Shown here: positions 7,335 through 39,997 of the stretch, in pieces | Layout of the letters: the number at the start of each line of letters is the position of its first letter | Numbering within the stretch: position 1 is the stretch's first letter | From: an uncultured Sunxiuqinia sp. | GTDB lineage: Bacteria; Bacteroidota; Bacteroidia; Bacteroidales; Prolixibacteraceae | NCBI RefSeq assembly: GCF_963678245.1 | Contig: NZ_OY782770.1 | Coordinates: forward strand, 1,364,001-1,428,000 | Direction of reading: 5' to 3' | DNA length: 64,000 nt | Made by a program: the position numbers and the translations under genes | Notes under the pieces: generated by a model | The model's input: only the letters and a program-made list of their open reading frames with translations | The model's database searches: none | What the model was told of the DNA's origin: nothing

Positions 7335-7611
7335 GTGCAACGAGATCAACCTGAAACGGAAAAAGCAATCGCTAAAAGTCAGGACTTCGCCAATGTGGAA
7401 GGAAACAGCTATTTTCCAATTGAATCATTAAATAAAGAATATTTTAAAGATGGCGACACTCAGACGGCTTGCCACTGGAGCGGAACCGCATTTTGCGATG
7501 ACCGGGAAATTGATGGTAAGGTAAATCACAATGCCGTTTGGTTTCGCTGAGCCGTCGGGCATAGCAAACAGCATCAAAGGGCATGTCACATTTAAAAAGG
7601 CATACAAGTGA
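7335..7611 (+). pseudogene. DUF427-family protein, frameshifted remnant
   Basis: The first 71 codons read like the C-terminal part of a DUF427 protein (ETEKAIAKSQDFANVEGNSY, then HWSGTAF and EIDGKVNHNAVW) and end at TGA 7548-7550. The expected continuation AEPSGIANSIKGHVTFKKAY appears at once in another frame (GCT at 7546, stop TGA 7609-7611). A frameshift near 7546 therefore breaks the gene, and the usual N-terminal region also looks short. It lies upstream of the ergothioneine-type genes in the same direction. Family assignment is from remembered motifs; the function of DUF427 is unknown. Confidence 0.6.
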
Positions 7612-7688
7612 TCAGTAATTAAGTTCAAATAAACATATAAACTAACTCAAATACATTTTGTTGTTTGTTATAAACGAAGACAATCTAA

Positions 7689-9008
7689 ATGAGTAATAAT
7701 TCTATGTTTACTGAAATGTCGACAAACGAGTTGGTGGCTTTATTGTCATCTCCCAAAGCAAAATTTATTGACATCCGTCCGGTTAATGCCTACAATGGTT
7801 GGCGGCTTCAAAATGAACCAAGAGGTGGTCACATCAAAGGTGCAAAAACTCTGCCTGAAAAGTGGGCGAATTATATTGACTGGATTGAAATAGTCCGGTC
7901 GAAAGGAATTTTGCCCGAACATGAAATTGTACTGTATGGCTACTCAATAGATAAAATAGAAGAGATCGCAATCCGCTTTCAAAAGTCTGGATACAACCAA
8001 ATTAAAATTTACAATCATTTCCATGATGAGTGGTCGCCAAACACTGAATTACCGATGGATTCTCTTCCTCGATTCGAGAATTTAGTGCCTGCAAGTTTTG
8101 TAAACGAGATCATTTCAGGCGAAAGGCCATTGGAGTACGAAGGGAAAAAAGTGGTCATCGTTCATGCTCATTATCGCAACCGCGATGCTTATTTGAGTGG
8201 GCATATTCCGAGGGCAATTGATATGGATACACTCGCCCTTGAAGCCACGGAAACCTAGAATCGCCGATCGCCAGAAGAATTAGAGCAAGCCTTGCTTAAG
8301 CATGGAATAACGTCAGACACACTGGTTATTTCATACGGAAAATTCATGTTCCCGGATAATGATGACGAATTTCCGGGTAGCGCGGCCGGCGACATCGGAG
8401 CCATTCGCAATGCTTTCATTATGATGTATGCGGGCGTAAAAGATGTTCGGGTACTGAATGGCGGATTCCAATCCTGGGAAGATGCAGCATACGAAATTGC
8501 CACCGATGATGTTCCCAAAACTCCGGTTGAAAACTTCGGGGTAAATATTCCTGTAAAATCTGAACTGGCTGTTGACATTCCGGAAGCGAAAGAAATGCTG
8601 GTTTCTTCAACGGCCGACTTGGTCTGCGTTAGAAGTTGGCCCGAGTATATTGGCGAAGTAAGCGGTTACAATTATATCGAAAAAAAGGGCCGTATTCCCG
8701 GAGCTATTTTTGGCAACTGCGGTTCCGATGCCTATCACATGGAAAACTATCGCCATGTGGATCATACAACCCGCGAATTTCATGAAGTAGCGCAGATTTG
8801 GAAACAGGTGGGCGTTACCCCGGATAAACATTTGGCCTTTTATTGTGGTACAGGATGGCGCGGTAGCGAAGCCTGGTTTAATGCATGGCTGATGGGCTGG
8901 CCTCATGTTTCTGTATTCGACGGTGGTTGGTTCGAATGGAGCAACAATCCGGAGAATCCTTACGAAACGGGCATACCTGAAGACTCGAATGCTGAAATTT
9001 ATTCTTGA
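7689..9008 (+). pseudogene. eanB: EanB-like rhodanese (hercynine sulfurtransferase) interrupted by an in-frame TAG
   Basis: One frame of 440 codons runs from 7689 to TGA 9006-9008 and is broken only by TAG at 8256-8258 (codon 190). Sequence on both sides is continuous with one protein: ...DMDTLALEATET, stop, NRRSPEELEQALLKHGI. The expected residue is Trp, so a single TGG to TAG change explains it. The protein has tandem rhodanese domains and the active-site loop FYCGTGWRGSEAWFN with Cys386 (codon 8844-8846). This motif and the stretch around DEFPGSAAGDIGAIRNAFIM match my recollection of Chlorobium EanB, which transfers polysulfide sulfur onto hercynine to make ergothioneine without oxygen. 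The next gene, 4 bp on, is the matching methyltransferase. A TTG at 8292 could restart translation but would lack the N-terminal third. Confidence 0.8.
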
Positions 9009-9012
9009 AATC

Positions 9013-9975
9013 ATGGAACAACCAACGCTTATTTCTGAAATTGGTGCCGACACACTAAGCGGCCTTTCTGCAAATCCGAAATACCTTCTGTCGAAATATT
9101 TTTACGACGATCAGGGAAGTTCCATTTTTCAGGATATCATGCAAATGCCGGAATATTACCTGACCGATTGCGAATTTGAAATTTTCTCAACGCACAAAAA
9201 ACAAATTACCAATGCGTTTAAAGATGGTGTTCAGGCATTTGATTTGATCGAATTAGGATCTGGTGATGGATTGAAAACAAAAGTCCTCTTACAGTTCCTC
9301 ATGGAAAGTTCGGTTAACTTTCGTTACATTCCAATAGACATTAGTCACAAAGCCAATGTGGAACTGGTAAGCAGTTTAAAAAAAGAACTTCCGTCATTGA
9401 ATGTCAGCTCCCAAACCGGCGACTATTTTCAGGAAGTAAGAAAATTGAATGGCCACTCCAGCTTACGCAAGGTGATTTTATTTTTGGGTTCGAACATTGG
9501 AAATTTTTCTGAGGAGGAGATTGACCTCTTTTTCAGTCAACTCTCCGGTCTCTGTCATCAGGGAGACCGGGTACTCATCGGTTTCGATCTGAAAAAATCA
9601 CCGGATGTGATTATGAACGCATACAATGATTCCCACGGACACACCGAGAAATTTAACCTCAACCATTTGCTGCGGCTGAATAGAGAACTCAATGCCAATT
9701 TCAATCCAGCCAATTTTGAGCATCATACCGAATACAACCCGGAAACAGGAAGAGTTAAAAGCTTTTTGGTCTCCAAAACGAAACAAACAGTCTCTATCGG
9801 CGATCTGGATAAAGATTTTCATTTCAACTCATGGGAAACTATTTTCATGGAACTTTCCCAGAAATTCGATTATAAAGGCATTGAAAAGCTCGCTCAAAGC
9901 CATGGCTTTAAAGTGCTAGAAAATTTCACCGATAAGCAGAATTATTTTGTAGACTCACTTTGGCAAAAAGCTTAA
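9013..9975 (+). CDS. eanA: L-histidine N-alpha-methyltransferase, EgtD/EanA type
   Basis: A 320-aa SAM-dependent methyltransferase of the EgtD family. Markers are the N-terminal LLSKYFYDDQGSSIFQDIM with PEYYLTDCEFEI, the SAM-binding motif DLIELGSGDGLKTKVLLQF, and LFLGSNIGNFSEEEIDLF, all in the family order. It would trimethylate histidine to hercynine, the substrate for EanB. The start at 9013 lies 4 bp after the eanB stop; an upstream in-frame GTG would overlap eanB by ~100 bp and lacks support. Unlike the genes on either side this one is uninterrupted, so hercynine could still be made even if eanB is dead. Confidence 0.87.
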   Translation: MEQPTLISEIGADTLSGLSANPKYLLSKYFYDDQGSSIFQDIMQMPEYYLTDCEFEIFSTHKKQITNAFKDGVQAFDLIELGSGDGLKTKVLLQFLMESSVNFRYIPIDISHKANVELVSSLKKELPSLNVSSQTGDYFQEVRKLNGHSSLRKVILFLGSNIGNFSEEEIDLFFSQLSGLCHQGDRVLIGFDLKKSPDVIMNAYNDSHGHTEKFNLNHLLRLNRELNANFNPANFEHHTEYNPETGRVKSFLVSKTKQTVSIGDLDKDFHFNSWETIFMELSQKFDYKGIEKLAQSHGFKVLENFTDKQNYFVDSLWQKA

Positions 9976-9985
9976 ACTCGAAATT

Positions 9986-10858
9986 ATGGAACAAACAGAC
10001 TATTGGCAAAAGTTATCTATCTCCTTTAATGACGATTAAAAAAAGATTCTGCATCGGCAACACATTGCAGTTCAATTTATCGCCTTCGTTGGCCGATATA
10101 TCATTCCCGAGAAGCCCGACAAAAGCAATATTAATATGCAGTATATTCCCAAAAAGCAGATTTTCCTGGGAAGTCAGTTAGCTCGCGGAATATGCGTTGG
10201 CCTGCAATTACACCAATTAAAACTCCAAATTCTTGATGAAAATTTGTCACTGCTCAGTGAAATTTCTCCGGTGGGGAGATCATTTGAAACTTCATTCTTT
10301 GAATTGAAAACTGAACTTGAAAAACTGGGAGTAGACGTTAGCCAGTTAAAAACGAAACAGCCCTACCAACTCAATATGGATTTGCTGAAAGATGGATTCT
10401 GTAGTCATGTTCACTTAGCTGAAATGGTTGACGAGAGCATCCGATATCGGCATAATGCAGAACTGGTCATGAAGGAATTTGCCCCAACCTTTTCAACTGT
10501 TGAACCGGTGCGTATCTGGCCTCATCATTTTGATACCGGTACTTTTGCCACGTTGGTACAAAATAAAAAGGGAGAAACTTCTAAAACCATTGGGCTTGGC
10601 TGGGCTATTCCCGACAGTATGGTTGAAGAGCCCTACTTCTACCTAAGTTTTTCGTCTAAGAAATCGAATGACCTTTCGGACGAATTAAAAGAATTACCCG
10701 AGGGGAAATGGATGACTCCCGATTGGAATGGGGCTGTTTTACCGTTAAGCGAAATCCTTAGTCAATCAACTGCGAATCAACAATACGCTGGAGTCAAGTC
10801 GTTTTTAAAAAATGGTATTGATCAGCTCCTAAAGCATATTCAACTCGATAACCAATAA
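9986..10858 (+). pseudogene. Uncharacterised protein, third gene of the ean locus, interrupted by an in-frame TAA
   Basis: An ATG at 9986, 10 bp after eanA, opens a frame MEQTDYWQKLSISFNDD that hits TAA at 10037-10039 and then continues in the same frame (KKILHRQHIAVQFIAFVGRY) to 10858, about 290 codons in all. An internal ATG at 10136 would give 240 aa. The protein has no signal peptide or membrane helix and contains VRIWPHHFDTGTFATLV and GLGWAIPDSM. I do not know its function; the His-His-Phe-Asp stretch could be a metal or substrate site. Spacing implies co-transcription with eanB and eanA. Confidence 0.65.
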
Positions 10859-15320: not shown

Positions 15321-15357
15321 AAAAAACGGGAGCTCAGCTGAGCTCCCGTTTTTTTTA
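15321..15357. terminator. Bidirectional rho-independent terminator
   Basis: A perfect, mostly G/C stem AACGGGAGCTC...GAGCTCCCGTT (about 15325-15350) flanked by A7 on the left and T8 on the right. It lies between two convergent genes, the ROK kinase and the epimerase, and can terminate both. Its right edge reaches the epimerase stop codon. Confidence 0.93.
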
Positions 15358-16378
15358 TATAATATCTTTCTGAAAAAGATGCGCAATGTCAGCAATGGTC
15401 GTATCTAAATTGCGGTAATGAAAATCAATTGTCTTTTGAATTTTATCTCCGTTGTAATGGTTGATTCGGTTAGATCCCGAAATTGCTTCTTTTGTAATTT
15501 GCGGGCGTTTCCCCGAGAAAAAACTGGCTACCCGCGCAGCACGCCAGGCAACTTGTAGAATCATATCGGAAGCGAAAGTTCTTGGGCGCGGCTTTTGCAA
15601 ATTGTCAGCTATTTTATTGAAAAAATTCTGATAACTCATATTGCCGGCATTCAGGATGAACCGTTGGTTTTTGGTGTTGTTAAAGTTGTTATCGTTCATG
15701 AGCTGAACCATTGCTGTTGCAACATCGCGAACATCAACAAATCCGGTTTCTCCCTTGGTGTAATATTTTAGTCCTTTCCCAATTGCTTGAAAAAGCTTGG
15801 GGCTGCCAATATCCCAGTTTCCCGGCCCGAGGATTATCGATGGGTTTACAATCACCGCGTCAAGCCCTTCTTCAATGCCGCGCCAAACTTCCATCTCCGA
15901 AAAAAACTTACTCAGGCTATAGCCCGATTTTTGTTTCGAAGGAATCCAATAAGTTTCTTCGTTTATTTCGCTACCATCCTGCGTTCTTCCCAAGGCTGCA
16001 ATAGAGCTGATGTGACCGAACTTTCTAACCTTGTTATGGATGGCCGCATTAATCAGGTTGGCAGTTCCTTTTACGTTATTATTGAGCATGCTGTCGCGGT
16101 CGTTCGCATGAAAAGATACGATAGCGGCACAGTGATAGACTTCAGTGGCTCCAACAAGCAAATTTTCCAGACTATGGTAATCCAGAATATCTCCTTCAAC
16201 CCATTCAATTTGGCTGAATAGCTCTTCGGATTGATCGCTGTAGTACGAAAAAACTTTCTTCACCCCTTTAACATGGCTGGTCGGACGTTTTTAAAACGCG
16301 CACCTTTTTACCTGAATTCAGCAGGTTAAATAGCAAATGTGATCCAACCAATCCGGTACCTCCTGTCACAAAAATCAT
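15355..16378 (-). pseudogene. NAD-dependent epimerase/dehydratase (SDR), frameshifted near the N-terminus
   Basis: The conserved start is at 16378: MIFVTGGTGLVGSHLLFNLL, a full Rossmann GxxGxxG nucleotide loop. After VRVLK the frame breaks at an A5 run (minus strand, about 16291-16295); with four A it would read LKRPTSHVKGVKKVFSYY and join the 302-codon frame below 16263. That frame has HCAAIVSF, the YSLSKFFSE motif (Tyr-Lys catalytic pair) and NPSIILGPGNWD, as in extended SDR enzymes of the dihydroflavonol reductase type. As written, the product lacks its cofactor-binding domain. Whether this is mutation or a sequencing slip cannot be decided here. Confidence 0.8.
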
Positions 16379-36028: not shown

Positions 36029-39000
36029 ATGTTAATGAGTGACTGTCTGCTGAAAAAAAATGAATTAAAAATTGCTAATTTATTGTTGGCTCTTTTGCTG
36101 ATTGGCATCATGGGTTTTGCCAACGAATCTCAGGTAAACACGCAGTATAAATTCATGCACCTGACGATTAACGACGGCTTGTCAAATAATCAGGTGCGTT
36201 CAATTTTGAAAGATAGTCAGGGTTTTATGTGGTTTGGAACAGGGCGGGGATTGAATCGTTTCGATGGGTTGAGATTTAAAACCTACAAGCACGATCCTTA
36301 TGATAGTACATCTATTCCGTTTAATGCCATTGACTTTTTATCTGAAGATTCGGCAGGACAAATTTGGATTAAGTCAGTTAACGACTTCGCCATTTTTAAT
36401 CCGCAAAAGGAGACGTTTTCAAGTCCAGATTCTTATTTGGGTGAATTTTCAATTCCTTTGATATCTTTATATTCTATTTTTAACGATCAAGAGGGGAATA
36501 CGTGGTTCGTGAATAATTCCTCTGGTCTTTATCGATTGAATCATTCAAGTCGTTCGGTGACCATTTTAAAACATCTGGAGGACGATCCTACTTCAATTAA
36601 TAGTGATTCAATGATGGCTCTTAATCAGGATTCCAAAGGAAACTTCTGGGCCATTTCTTCATCTGGTATGCTTGAAAAGCTAGACCGATACAGCCTCCAT
36701 GTTTCCTATCGTATTCAACTAAATGAAGAGTTTAAGGGTGCAGTCAATAACTATCGGATTTTTATTGATTCGGAAGACGACATTTGGGTTTATTCAATTG
36801 GTCAGCCTTACGGTGCCTTTTTGGTTGATACCTCCACTGGAAATGTTTTGCATGTTAATACTAAATCAAAGAAAGCCAAATTAAACAATGATCTGGTGTC
36901 GTCAATTCTTGAGGATGAGGACGGCATGATCTGGTTGGCTACCGATCATGGCGGCATAAACAGGTTGAATAAGAATGTTTTTTCTGTTATTTACATGACC
37001 AATAATCCGGATGATAAATACAGCCTCATTCAAAATAGTGTGAACTGCCTGTATAAAGATTCTCAGAATATTATTTGGGCTGGAACACACAAAAAAGGCG
37101 TGAGTTACTATCACCAAAGCCTGATTCGTTTTGATCACTACCGACATGTCCCATCTATCTCATCAAGCTTGCCTTTTAATGATGTCAACTGCTTTGTAGA
37201 AGACAAAAAGGGAAATCTTTGGATTGGCACAAATGGAGGTGGTCTGCTTTATTTCAACCGAAAGAGCGACAGTTACAGGGTTTACAGGAACGATTCTTCC
37301 GATCCGAGCAGTTTGAGCAATAACATCATCGTTTCGCTTTTTATTGACCGAAATGATCAGTTGTGGATTGGTACTTATTTTGGTGGATTGGATCGATTTG
37401 ACGGTCGTGTTTTTCACCATCACCGACATGATCCGGACAATCCTGCATCGTTATCAGATAACCGTGTTTGGGAGATTTTTGAAGATTCGAAGCACAATTT
37501 ATGGATTGGAACCTTGGCTGGAGGTTTAGAGTTGTATGACCGCAAAAGAGGTGTTTTTTATCATTATGCTTCTGAAGATATGAACTCCGTGGGCTCTAAC
37601 TTCATCATGTCAATCATGGAAGATTCCGAAAGTAACCTGTGGTTAGGGACATCTGACGGGGTCGATCGTTTGAATTTGTTAACCAAGCGGTTTGAACATT
37701 TTACGCCTGAGCCCGGTGTCCCCGGAGGGTTGAGTGATAAAAATGCCCTGGGGATTCACGAAGATGCTCGTGGACTAATCTGGATTGCAACTCCCGAGGG
37801 CTAAACCTATATAACAAGCATGAAAACCAGTTCAGGGTATTTACTGAAAAAGATGGGTTGCCGGATTCGAATTTCAAAACAATACTTGAAGACGAACAAG
37901 GTAATTTATGGATTGTAACAACCAATGGTGTTTCTAAAATCGAAATCACCAATTTTTCAGACAATCCGGAAATTGAACAATTGGAGATTCAAACCACCAA
38001 TTACGACATGATGGATGGACTTCAAGGCAAAGAGTTCAATGCAAATGCAGCTTATCGTACGAAAGCCGGCGAACTGATTTTTGGAGGTGCAAATGGGTTT
38101 AACCTATTTAAACCGGAAAACCTGGAAGAGCAAAAACTCAGCAATGAAGTTGTATTGACAAACTTAAAAATTTTCAATCGTGAAGTGCCGGTTGTAATGC
38201 CGATTCAAAATCGGATTATTCTTGACAAATCAATTACACAACAGGATAAGATTACTTTGCTTCATCGCGAAAACGTTTTTTCGCTGGGCTTTGCTTCGTT
38301 GAATTTTTTTCAACCCGAAAAAAACAGCTTCGAATATAAGCTGGAAGGGTTTAATGAAGCTTGGTTGAAAACTGACCCGCAAAACGCAGAGGGCACTTTT
38401 ACGAACTTAAATGCCGGAGAATATGCGTTTCATGTGCGTGTGTCGAATGATGGAGGCAAAAGCTGGCAAGTGCTGCCCCCTCCCCTGAGGATTGAAATAA
38501 CGCCTCCTTTTTGGAAAAGTAATTATGCCTTTGGATTTTATGTATTATTTATCGTTAGCCTGTTATTGCTGGCGCGTCGTATTTTAGTTGAACGAGAGCG
38601 ATTGAAATTCGCAGCCGAGCAAGAACACCAGGAAGCAGAGTGCATTCATCAGCTAGATGGTTTAAAGACAAAATTTTTCACCAATATTAGTCACGAGTTT
38701 CGCACTCCTCTCTCCTTGATTTTATCGCCAATCGAACGATTAATTGGAGAGACGAAGGATGAAAAGTTAAAAGCTCAATTGAAATTTATCCATCGCCATG
38801 CGCGAAGGCTTTTGGCCATGGTAAATCAACTGCTCGATTTTAGAAAGATGGAAGTTCAACAGATTGAGGCCAAGGAAAATTGGGGCGATTTAATTGGATT
38901 TATAAAAGAATTTGGACTCTCTTTTCAGGATTTAGCGGCAAATTAAGGAAATCAAGTTCAGGTTTAAAGCTGAAAAGAAAGATTTGTTTACTTATTTTGA

Positions 39001-39997
39001 TCAGGATAAAGTTGAAAAAGTGATCTTCAATTTATTGTCGAATGCGTTTAAGTTTACGCCTGAAAAAGGTAAAATTACATTGCGGTTAAAATTTATTGAG
39101 TCGGATGTTGACTCCGAAAATAGCAGTCGGCGGGGAGCGGTGTTAATCTCTGTCAAGGATAATGGAATTGGAATACCAGTTGAAAAACAAGAACGAATTT
39201 TTGATCGATTTTTTCAGAATGATCTTCCAAATTCGTTTGTCAATCATGGAAGTGGAATAGGTTTGTCGCTGGTAAATGATTACGTGAAAATATTGGGAGG
39301 TACTATCCGAGTCGAAAGTATCGTAGATAAAGGCAGCATCTTTAAAGTCACTCTGCCGGTGGAGTTGTTTTCGCAAGAACAAATTGATTTAAAAAATCAG
39401 TCCGGGGATTCTAAAGAGCCAGTCATGTATTATCGGGAAAATCGTTCGGTTTTTAACAATGAAGTTAAATTTGATTCGACTAAAAAAAAATATTTTATTG
39501 GTCGAGGATAATGAAGATTTCCGCTTTTACTTGAAAGACAATCTGAAAGAGCTCTATAATGTGTATGAAGCCGGGAACGGTAAAATAGGATGGGAGATGA
39601 CTTTGAAGAAGCTCCCTGACTTAATTGTAAGCGATGTTGTGATGCCCGAAATGGATGGTATTGAATTGTGCTCGAAAATTAAAGGTGATGGACGAACCGC
39701 TCATGTTCCTCTCATCTTGTTGACAGCGAAAGTGGATACCGATCCAACGCTTGAAGGCTTCCAGTCTGGAGCAGATGATTACATTTCAAAACCATTTGAT
39801 TTTAGGATTTTGGAATCGCGCATTGAAATAGAGAGTTGACTGTCTCTGAAATTGCCTATGCATGTGGATTTAATAGTCCCAGATATTTTTCGAGATATTT
39901 TAAAGCCGAGTATAAAGAGCTGCCTTCGGAATACATCAACAACCATCGAAAAAAAACGAAACAGCTTTCAAATGAAACTTTGAAAGCTGTTCAGTAA
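36029..39997 (+). pseudogene. Hybrid two-component regulator (HTCS), multiply frameshifted with internal deletion
   Basis: Parts of one HTCS appear in order: signal and reg_prop beta-propeller (36029-37804), last blades, Y_Y_Y domain, membrane helix (YAFGFYVLFIVSLLLLARR) and HisKA (FFTNISHEFRTPLSLILSPI) at 37805-38946, HATPase at ~38947-39480, receiver (ILLVEDNEDFRFYL; DLIVSDVVMPEMDG) at 39459-39839, and the last AraC helix-turn-helix (VSEIAYACGFNSPRYFSRYF) to TAA 39995-39997. Frame breaks: a G run one base short near 37798; an indel near 38943; an A9 run (39482-39490) where A8 fits. Around 39830 the first half of the AraC domain is missing, a true deletion. It follows the GH31 gene by 72 bp and would have regulated it. 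Confidence 0.88.
39948..39990 (-). terminator. Rho-independent terminator inside the end of the HTCS pseudogene
   Basis: Perfect 12-bp stem ACAGCTTTCAAA (39961-39972), loop TGAAAC, TTTGAAAGCTGT (39979-39990). Read on the minus strand it is followed by TTCG and a T8 run (39950-39957), so it terminates the response regulator gene at 40027-40533. It overlaps the C-terminal codons of the convergent HTCS remnant. Confidence 0.78.

Follow-up and report, generated by a model that had tools for sequence, protein, structure and literature searches.

In the oxygen-independent route to ergothioneine, EanA trimethylates histidine to give hercynine, and EanB transfers sulfur from a polysulfide-charged cysteine persulfide to the imidazole ring. 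In Chlorobium limicola EanB, the residues Cys412, Tyr353 and Thr414 are reported to be needed for catalysis (PMC9103826), and MES is a third known type of sulfurising enzyme (PMC9516567). Literature searches on EanB in Bacteroidota or as a pseudogene, and on the loss of ergothioneine biosynthesis genes or their occurrence in Bacteroidetes, showed no title or opening of an abstract about the locus described here among the matches listed. The stretch analysed, referred to as the window, comprises 64,000 nucleotides (G000:C4:1364001-1428000) of a 4.87 Mb Sunxiuqinia genome in 11 contigs. Its sequence suggests, with high probability, that an oxygen-independent EanB-EanA locus is being lost in this lineage, with eanA left behind.

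All features of the locus lie on the plus strand. The gene eanB (7689-9008), a three-rhodanese-type ergothioneine synthase gene, is interrupted at codon 190 by an in-frame TAG (8256-8258). The ATG of eanA, which encodes an EgtD-type L-histidine N-alpha-methyltransferase (9013-9975), lies at 9013, 4 bp past the eanB TGA (9006-9008), and ten bases after eanA begins the frame of a third, DUF5996-like gene (9986-10858), which is interrupted at codon 18 by an in-frame TAA (10037-10039), a Leu codon in the sister genome. A DUF427 (PF04248) remnant (7365-7613), with a TGA and a TAA inside, is found between eanB and the histidine kinase upstream of it. Thus, three of the four genes (eanB, the DUF5996-like gene and DUF427) are broken and eanA is whole. 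The sister genome (G128), from the same genus and very likely Sunxiuqinia indica, is about 92% identical to the window in DNA and carries matching genes in the matching order, which argues against a chance arrangement; there, EanB reads through all 439 aa without a break and the third gene is whole.

The eanB frame comprises 439 codons, open apart from the TAG, and its two halves (189 and 249 aa) each match the Rhodanese family PF00581 (E 1.8e-11 and 1.4e-19, respectively). When the sister EanB was compared with solved structures, the best match was C. limicola EanB (692.7 bits), aligned as 6ktv across 426 residues, versus 291 bits for the next family, YnjE; the second half of the window frame alone scored 434 bits to C. 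limicola EanB versus 225 to YnjE. The EanB loop recognised by the first-pass annotation, FYCGTGWRGSEAWFN, was found in the frame, and the alignment to EanB that it had called for retained the active-site cysteine, with C386, Y327 and T388 of the window corresponding to Cys412, Tyr353 and Thr414 at a constant offset of 26. All 79 relatives compared share the same residues at these three positions. What the window gene lacks is the full-length frame of a working EanB, since the TAG stands at codon 190; there is strong support for regarding it, as written, as a broken member of the EanB family. When plasmids were queried with the second half of EanB, 115 records came back, every one below 60% identity. 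It was also observed that several Salinimicrobium loci (L105, L109, L118-L120, L126, L130 and L150) carry EanB relatives that share about 70% identity with the query, and that no methyltransferase, DUF427 or third gene turned up in the surrounding DNA that was retrieved.

The adjacent eanA matches PF10017 (E 3.3e-99, 332 bits), lies above the TIGR03438 egtD equivalog cut-off (293.4 versus 290.9 bits) and matches solved EgtD chains with a best E of 1.2e-44. With C. limicola EanB as the best solved match of its neighbour, these assignments bore out the earlier identification of an eanB-eanA pair, in which the methyltransferase, at 320 aa, is intact and free of any visible decay. In the genome that contains the window, one methyltransferase and one EanB were found; searches for a second EanB and for EgtB gave no match.

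Codon 190 encodes Trp in all 19 aligned Prolixibacteraceae proteins and all 80 genome_contigs loci examined, both sets counting the sister, and in 20 of 20 Prolixibacteraceae loci read as DNA; the 80 are the best of 326 confirmed. The TAG therefore does replace an expected Trp codon, as had been proposed, and comparison with close relatives gives the same answer; likewise, the rest of the frame is intact, with a single lesion in 439 codons. Stops noted within other EanBs (three of the 80 alignments and four Prolixibacteraceae matches) were considered as possible parallels and rejected: the seven checked were all terminal or lay in the last residues of the match, so none of them resembles that of the window. 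The view of the eanB break as an isolated hit stood only in part, for the TAG is present but the third gene (by its TAA) and DUF427 are broken as well. Because the third gene carries a nonsense codon and DUF427 is a remnant, the locus as a whole looks decaying, and the likeliest account of the amber codon is a genuine nonsense mutation within such a locus, not recoding.

In the sister, which retains the working form, EanA would make hercynine and EanB would add sulfur to it. In the window, the TAG would end EanB synthesis at codon 190 in a frame of 439 codons, far ahead of the catalytic Cys386, and no active EanB would be expected because the stop precedes this residue. Hercynine, if made, would not be converted to ergothioneine and may accumulate, judging from the sequence. 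The lesions, the orthologs and the kept catalytic residues can be read directly, whereas both stops are presumably real in the DNA of the cell and the product presumably absent. The DUF5996-like neighbour is cut as well, and decay of DUF427 probably started before the split from the sister.

Several measures bear on the timing of this loss. Pairwise dN/dS against the sister was 0.074 for eanB, close to the median of 0.076 across 29 genes; eanA gave 0.094, and the third gene, at 0.209, ranked first among the 29. By part, the value for eanB was about 0.11 over codons 1-189 and about 0.05 over codons 191-439; these values imply that constraint acted on eanB during most of the period after the two lineages diverged. 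Derived changes, polarised with homologs, numbered 17 in the window, 4 in the sister and 1 unresolved for eanB, 10, 12 and 3 for eanA, and 16, 11 and 8 for the third gene. As a control, 21 window genes were polarised against the outgroups G127 and G129, and 80 changes fell on the window branch versus 43 on that of the sister. The window branch is longer overall, the excess in eanB is not significant (p 0.21), and relaxed selection on eanB was rejected as a candidate; compared with eanA alone, eanB gave p 0.027. At sites conserved in at least 95% of homologs, G175R and I376V are particular to the window eanB and none is particular to the sister, with the 79 other EanB homologs showing 0 to 6 differences each at such sites. 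A recent loss, as proposed, is supported by the single lesion in eanB and its near-median dN/dS, but the timing carries no firm date; a fairly recent decay of the pathway is the best reading of these sequences. Among the observations that run counter to decay are that eanB evolution is not significantly relaxed, with an ordinary dN/dS, and that eanA is without any decay.

This last point is where an alternative enters, according to which the loss of eanB was adaptive or neutral, eanA is kept by selection and the locus yields hercynine as its final product. This reading is unlikely. In its favour stand an intact eanA with a dN/dS of 0.094, whose window branch carries, if anything, fewer changes than the 80:43 background would give, and another genome (G100) that has the methyltransferase and no EanB match. 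However, the departure of eanA from that background is not significant (p 0.10), and a recent loss of eanB would have left eanA little time to decay, which makes its intact state weak evidence for selection.

Whether the stops belong to the genome at all was weighed through the pattern of lesions. The comparison took in the 36 sister ORFs that reach 120 aa or more and align over at least 90%, with the first and last 5% of each frame excluded. Although 120 kb extra was fetched per contig, the long plus-strand segments span only 48,033 columns; no lesion was found outside the window, which therefore supplies nearly all of the background. Four of the 36 ORFs carry lesions in the window (eanB, the third gene, an epimerase and a large regulator), and nonsense codons occur only in eanB and the third gene, the other 34 being without them. 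By a rough, gene-wise and post hoc count, the probability that two random nonsense genes both fall among the three of the locus is 0.005. Real decay is favoured because both nonsense genes belong to one locus. Elsewhere in the window, the large regulator-like gene (36029-39983) differs from the sister copy by three frameshifts of one base each and by the deletion of about 286 bases, which makes it a second decaying gene, and a gene that looks like an NAD-epimerase (15355-16378) contains a single additional base (16289) in a T run close to its 5′ end, a frameshift that could be real or an error.

The TAG change itself sits in a CCWGG motif. Among 55 aligned sister CCWGG sites, 15 show an inner C>T or G>A change in the window, and the reverse holds for 7 of 46 (40,523 aligned columns). 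A base-calling artefact at CCWGG was considered and rejected, given that 13 of the 15 changes are synonymous, as for real mutations and unlike random error. As a separate observation, CCTAG and CTAGG together occur 12 times in the window versus 2 in the sister (aligned part), and CCWGG motifs decay faster in the window than in the sister, perhaps by deamination at methylated CCWGG. In a rival reading, the species has a working locus, and one or both stops are sequencing or assembly errors or changes confined to the sequenced clone. The ordinary dN/dS of eanB with its one lesion in 439 codons would fit such an origin, as would the frameshifts that other parts of the window show at short single-base runs, which are possible errors. 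This is nevertheless improbable, considering that two independent nonsense codons and a DUF427 remnant meet in one locus while 34 of 36 ORFs are without nonsense, and that the changes at CCWGG sites do not behave as random error.

Suppression of the TAG, which the first-pass annotation had allowed for, is not supported. Among 46 tRNA genes, obtained by scoring 150 of 332 first-look candidates and all covered by ARAGORN, none carries an anticodon for TAG, TAA or TGA (CTA, TTA or TCA), a search of the genome for PylS gave no match, and TAG is an ordinary stop here because it ends 4 of the 23 listed window genes. That the codon is read through or recoded by a suppressor tRNA, pyrrolysine or similar means, with full EanB still made, is thus very improbable, for the good conservation of the frame after the stop speaks for it but the tRNA, PylS and stop-usage results, the Trp at this position in all 80 other loci and the different stop, TAA, in the neighbouring third gene all speak against it.

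The two neighbouring families were examined for their link with ergothioneine genes. The sister third protein does not match PF19459 (DUF5996), and 2 of 14 aligned homologs do (best E 4.1e-4); the gene was assigned through its homolog in the congener G131, which passes PF19459 (30.3 versus 25 bits) and is 31% identical to the sister protein (E 2.6e-43). An AlphaFold2 model of the sister protein was confident, with a pLDDT of 89.8; Foldseek against the PDB gave 340 matches at E ≤10, none of them at E ≤0.001, and a PDB sequence search with the alignment gave nothing under E 0.47. As for DUF427, the idea that it is degenerate in both species alike was rejected, given that the sister frame is still open over 90 codons, though its start codon is absent; in the window's genome, PF04248 had no match at E ≤1e-8. 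Decay of this gene probably preceded the split, because the sister copy is also without a start codon.

Across 140 Prolixibacteraceae genomes, DUF427 was found in 15, all within the 23 that carry the methyltransferase or EanB (hypergeometric P 9e-15), and the third-gene family in 12, of which 10 lie within those 23 (P 1.1e-7) and two, G112 and G113, outside; these P values are indicative only, the genomes being related. Near the 80 EanB loci, the methyltransferase was found at 57, DUF427 at 30 and a third-gene homolog at 15 (one at 25% identity), and 22 loci had none of the three, many contigs being short. It was also observed that genes of the DUF427 and DUF5996-like types go with ergothioneine genes whether the sulfurising enzyme is EanB or EgtB (window 9986-10858 and 7365-7613; L042:4695-5884), and literature searches for ergothioneine together with DUF427 or DUF5996 found nothing. 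It is tentatively suggested, with less than even confidence, that both families are unrecognised parts of ergothioneine metabolism, with either EanB or EgtB, and that this genome is losing them together with EanB stepwise while keeping EanA, with hercynine as the product. Two uncharacterised protein families are thereby flagged as tracking ergothioneine genes in Prolixibacteraceae.

Loss of the EanB-EanA locus, the preferred reading, is gene loss in a known pathway, with no new chemistry and no recoding. It offers a snapshot of the oxygen-independent ergothioneine pathway under loss, with eanB, eanA and the third gene intact in the sister; because that relative, about 92% identical, retains intact genes, the order and the consequences of the loss are testable. 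Among seven genomes of the genus, the methyltransferase is present in three and EanB in two. The five EanB-less genomes retain the neighbouring PpsR gene, and tblastn over 10 to 15 kb of the sequence surrounding that gene detected no ean genes; in G131, the ergothioneine genes are on a different contig from PpsR.

Compared with known systems, the locus resembles C. limicola EanA-EanB (EanB structures 6ktv and 6h98) in the adjacency of eanB and eanA and in the kept catalytic Cys, Tyr and Thr, and differs from it in that the window eanB is cut by a TAG. The window pair also has DUF427 and DUF5996-like genes beside it. With the three-domain sulfurtransferase YnjE of E. coli, the second-best family in the structure search, EanB shares the rhodanese superfamily and layout, but YnjE reaches less than half of EanB's score (291 versus 693 bits). 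The oxygen-dependent type is represented by G131, with the order egtB-like, egtD, DUF427, DUF5996. Unlike the window, this congener encodes an EgtB-like protein with FGE-sulfatase and DinB domains and is without a close EanB (best match 27%), whereas its methyltransferase is related (55% identity) and is directly followed by the same two accessory families.
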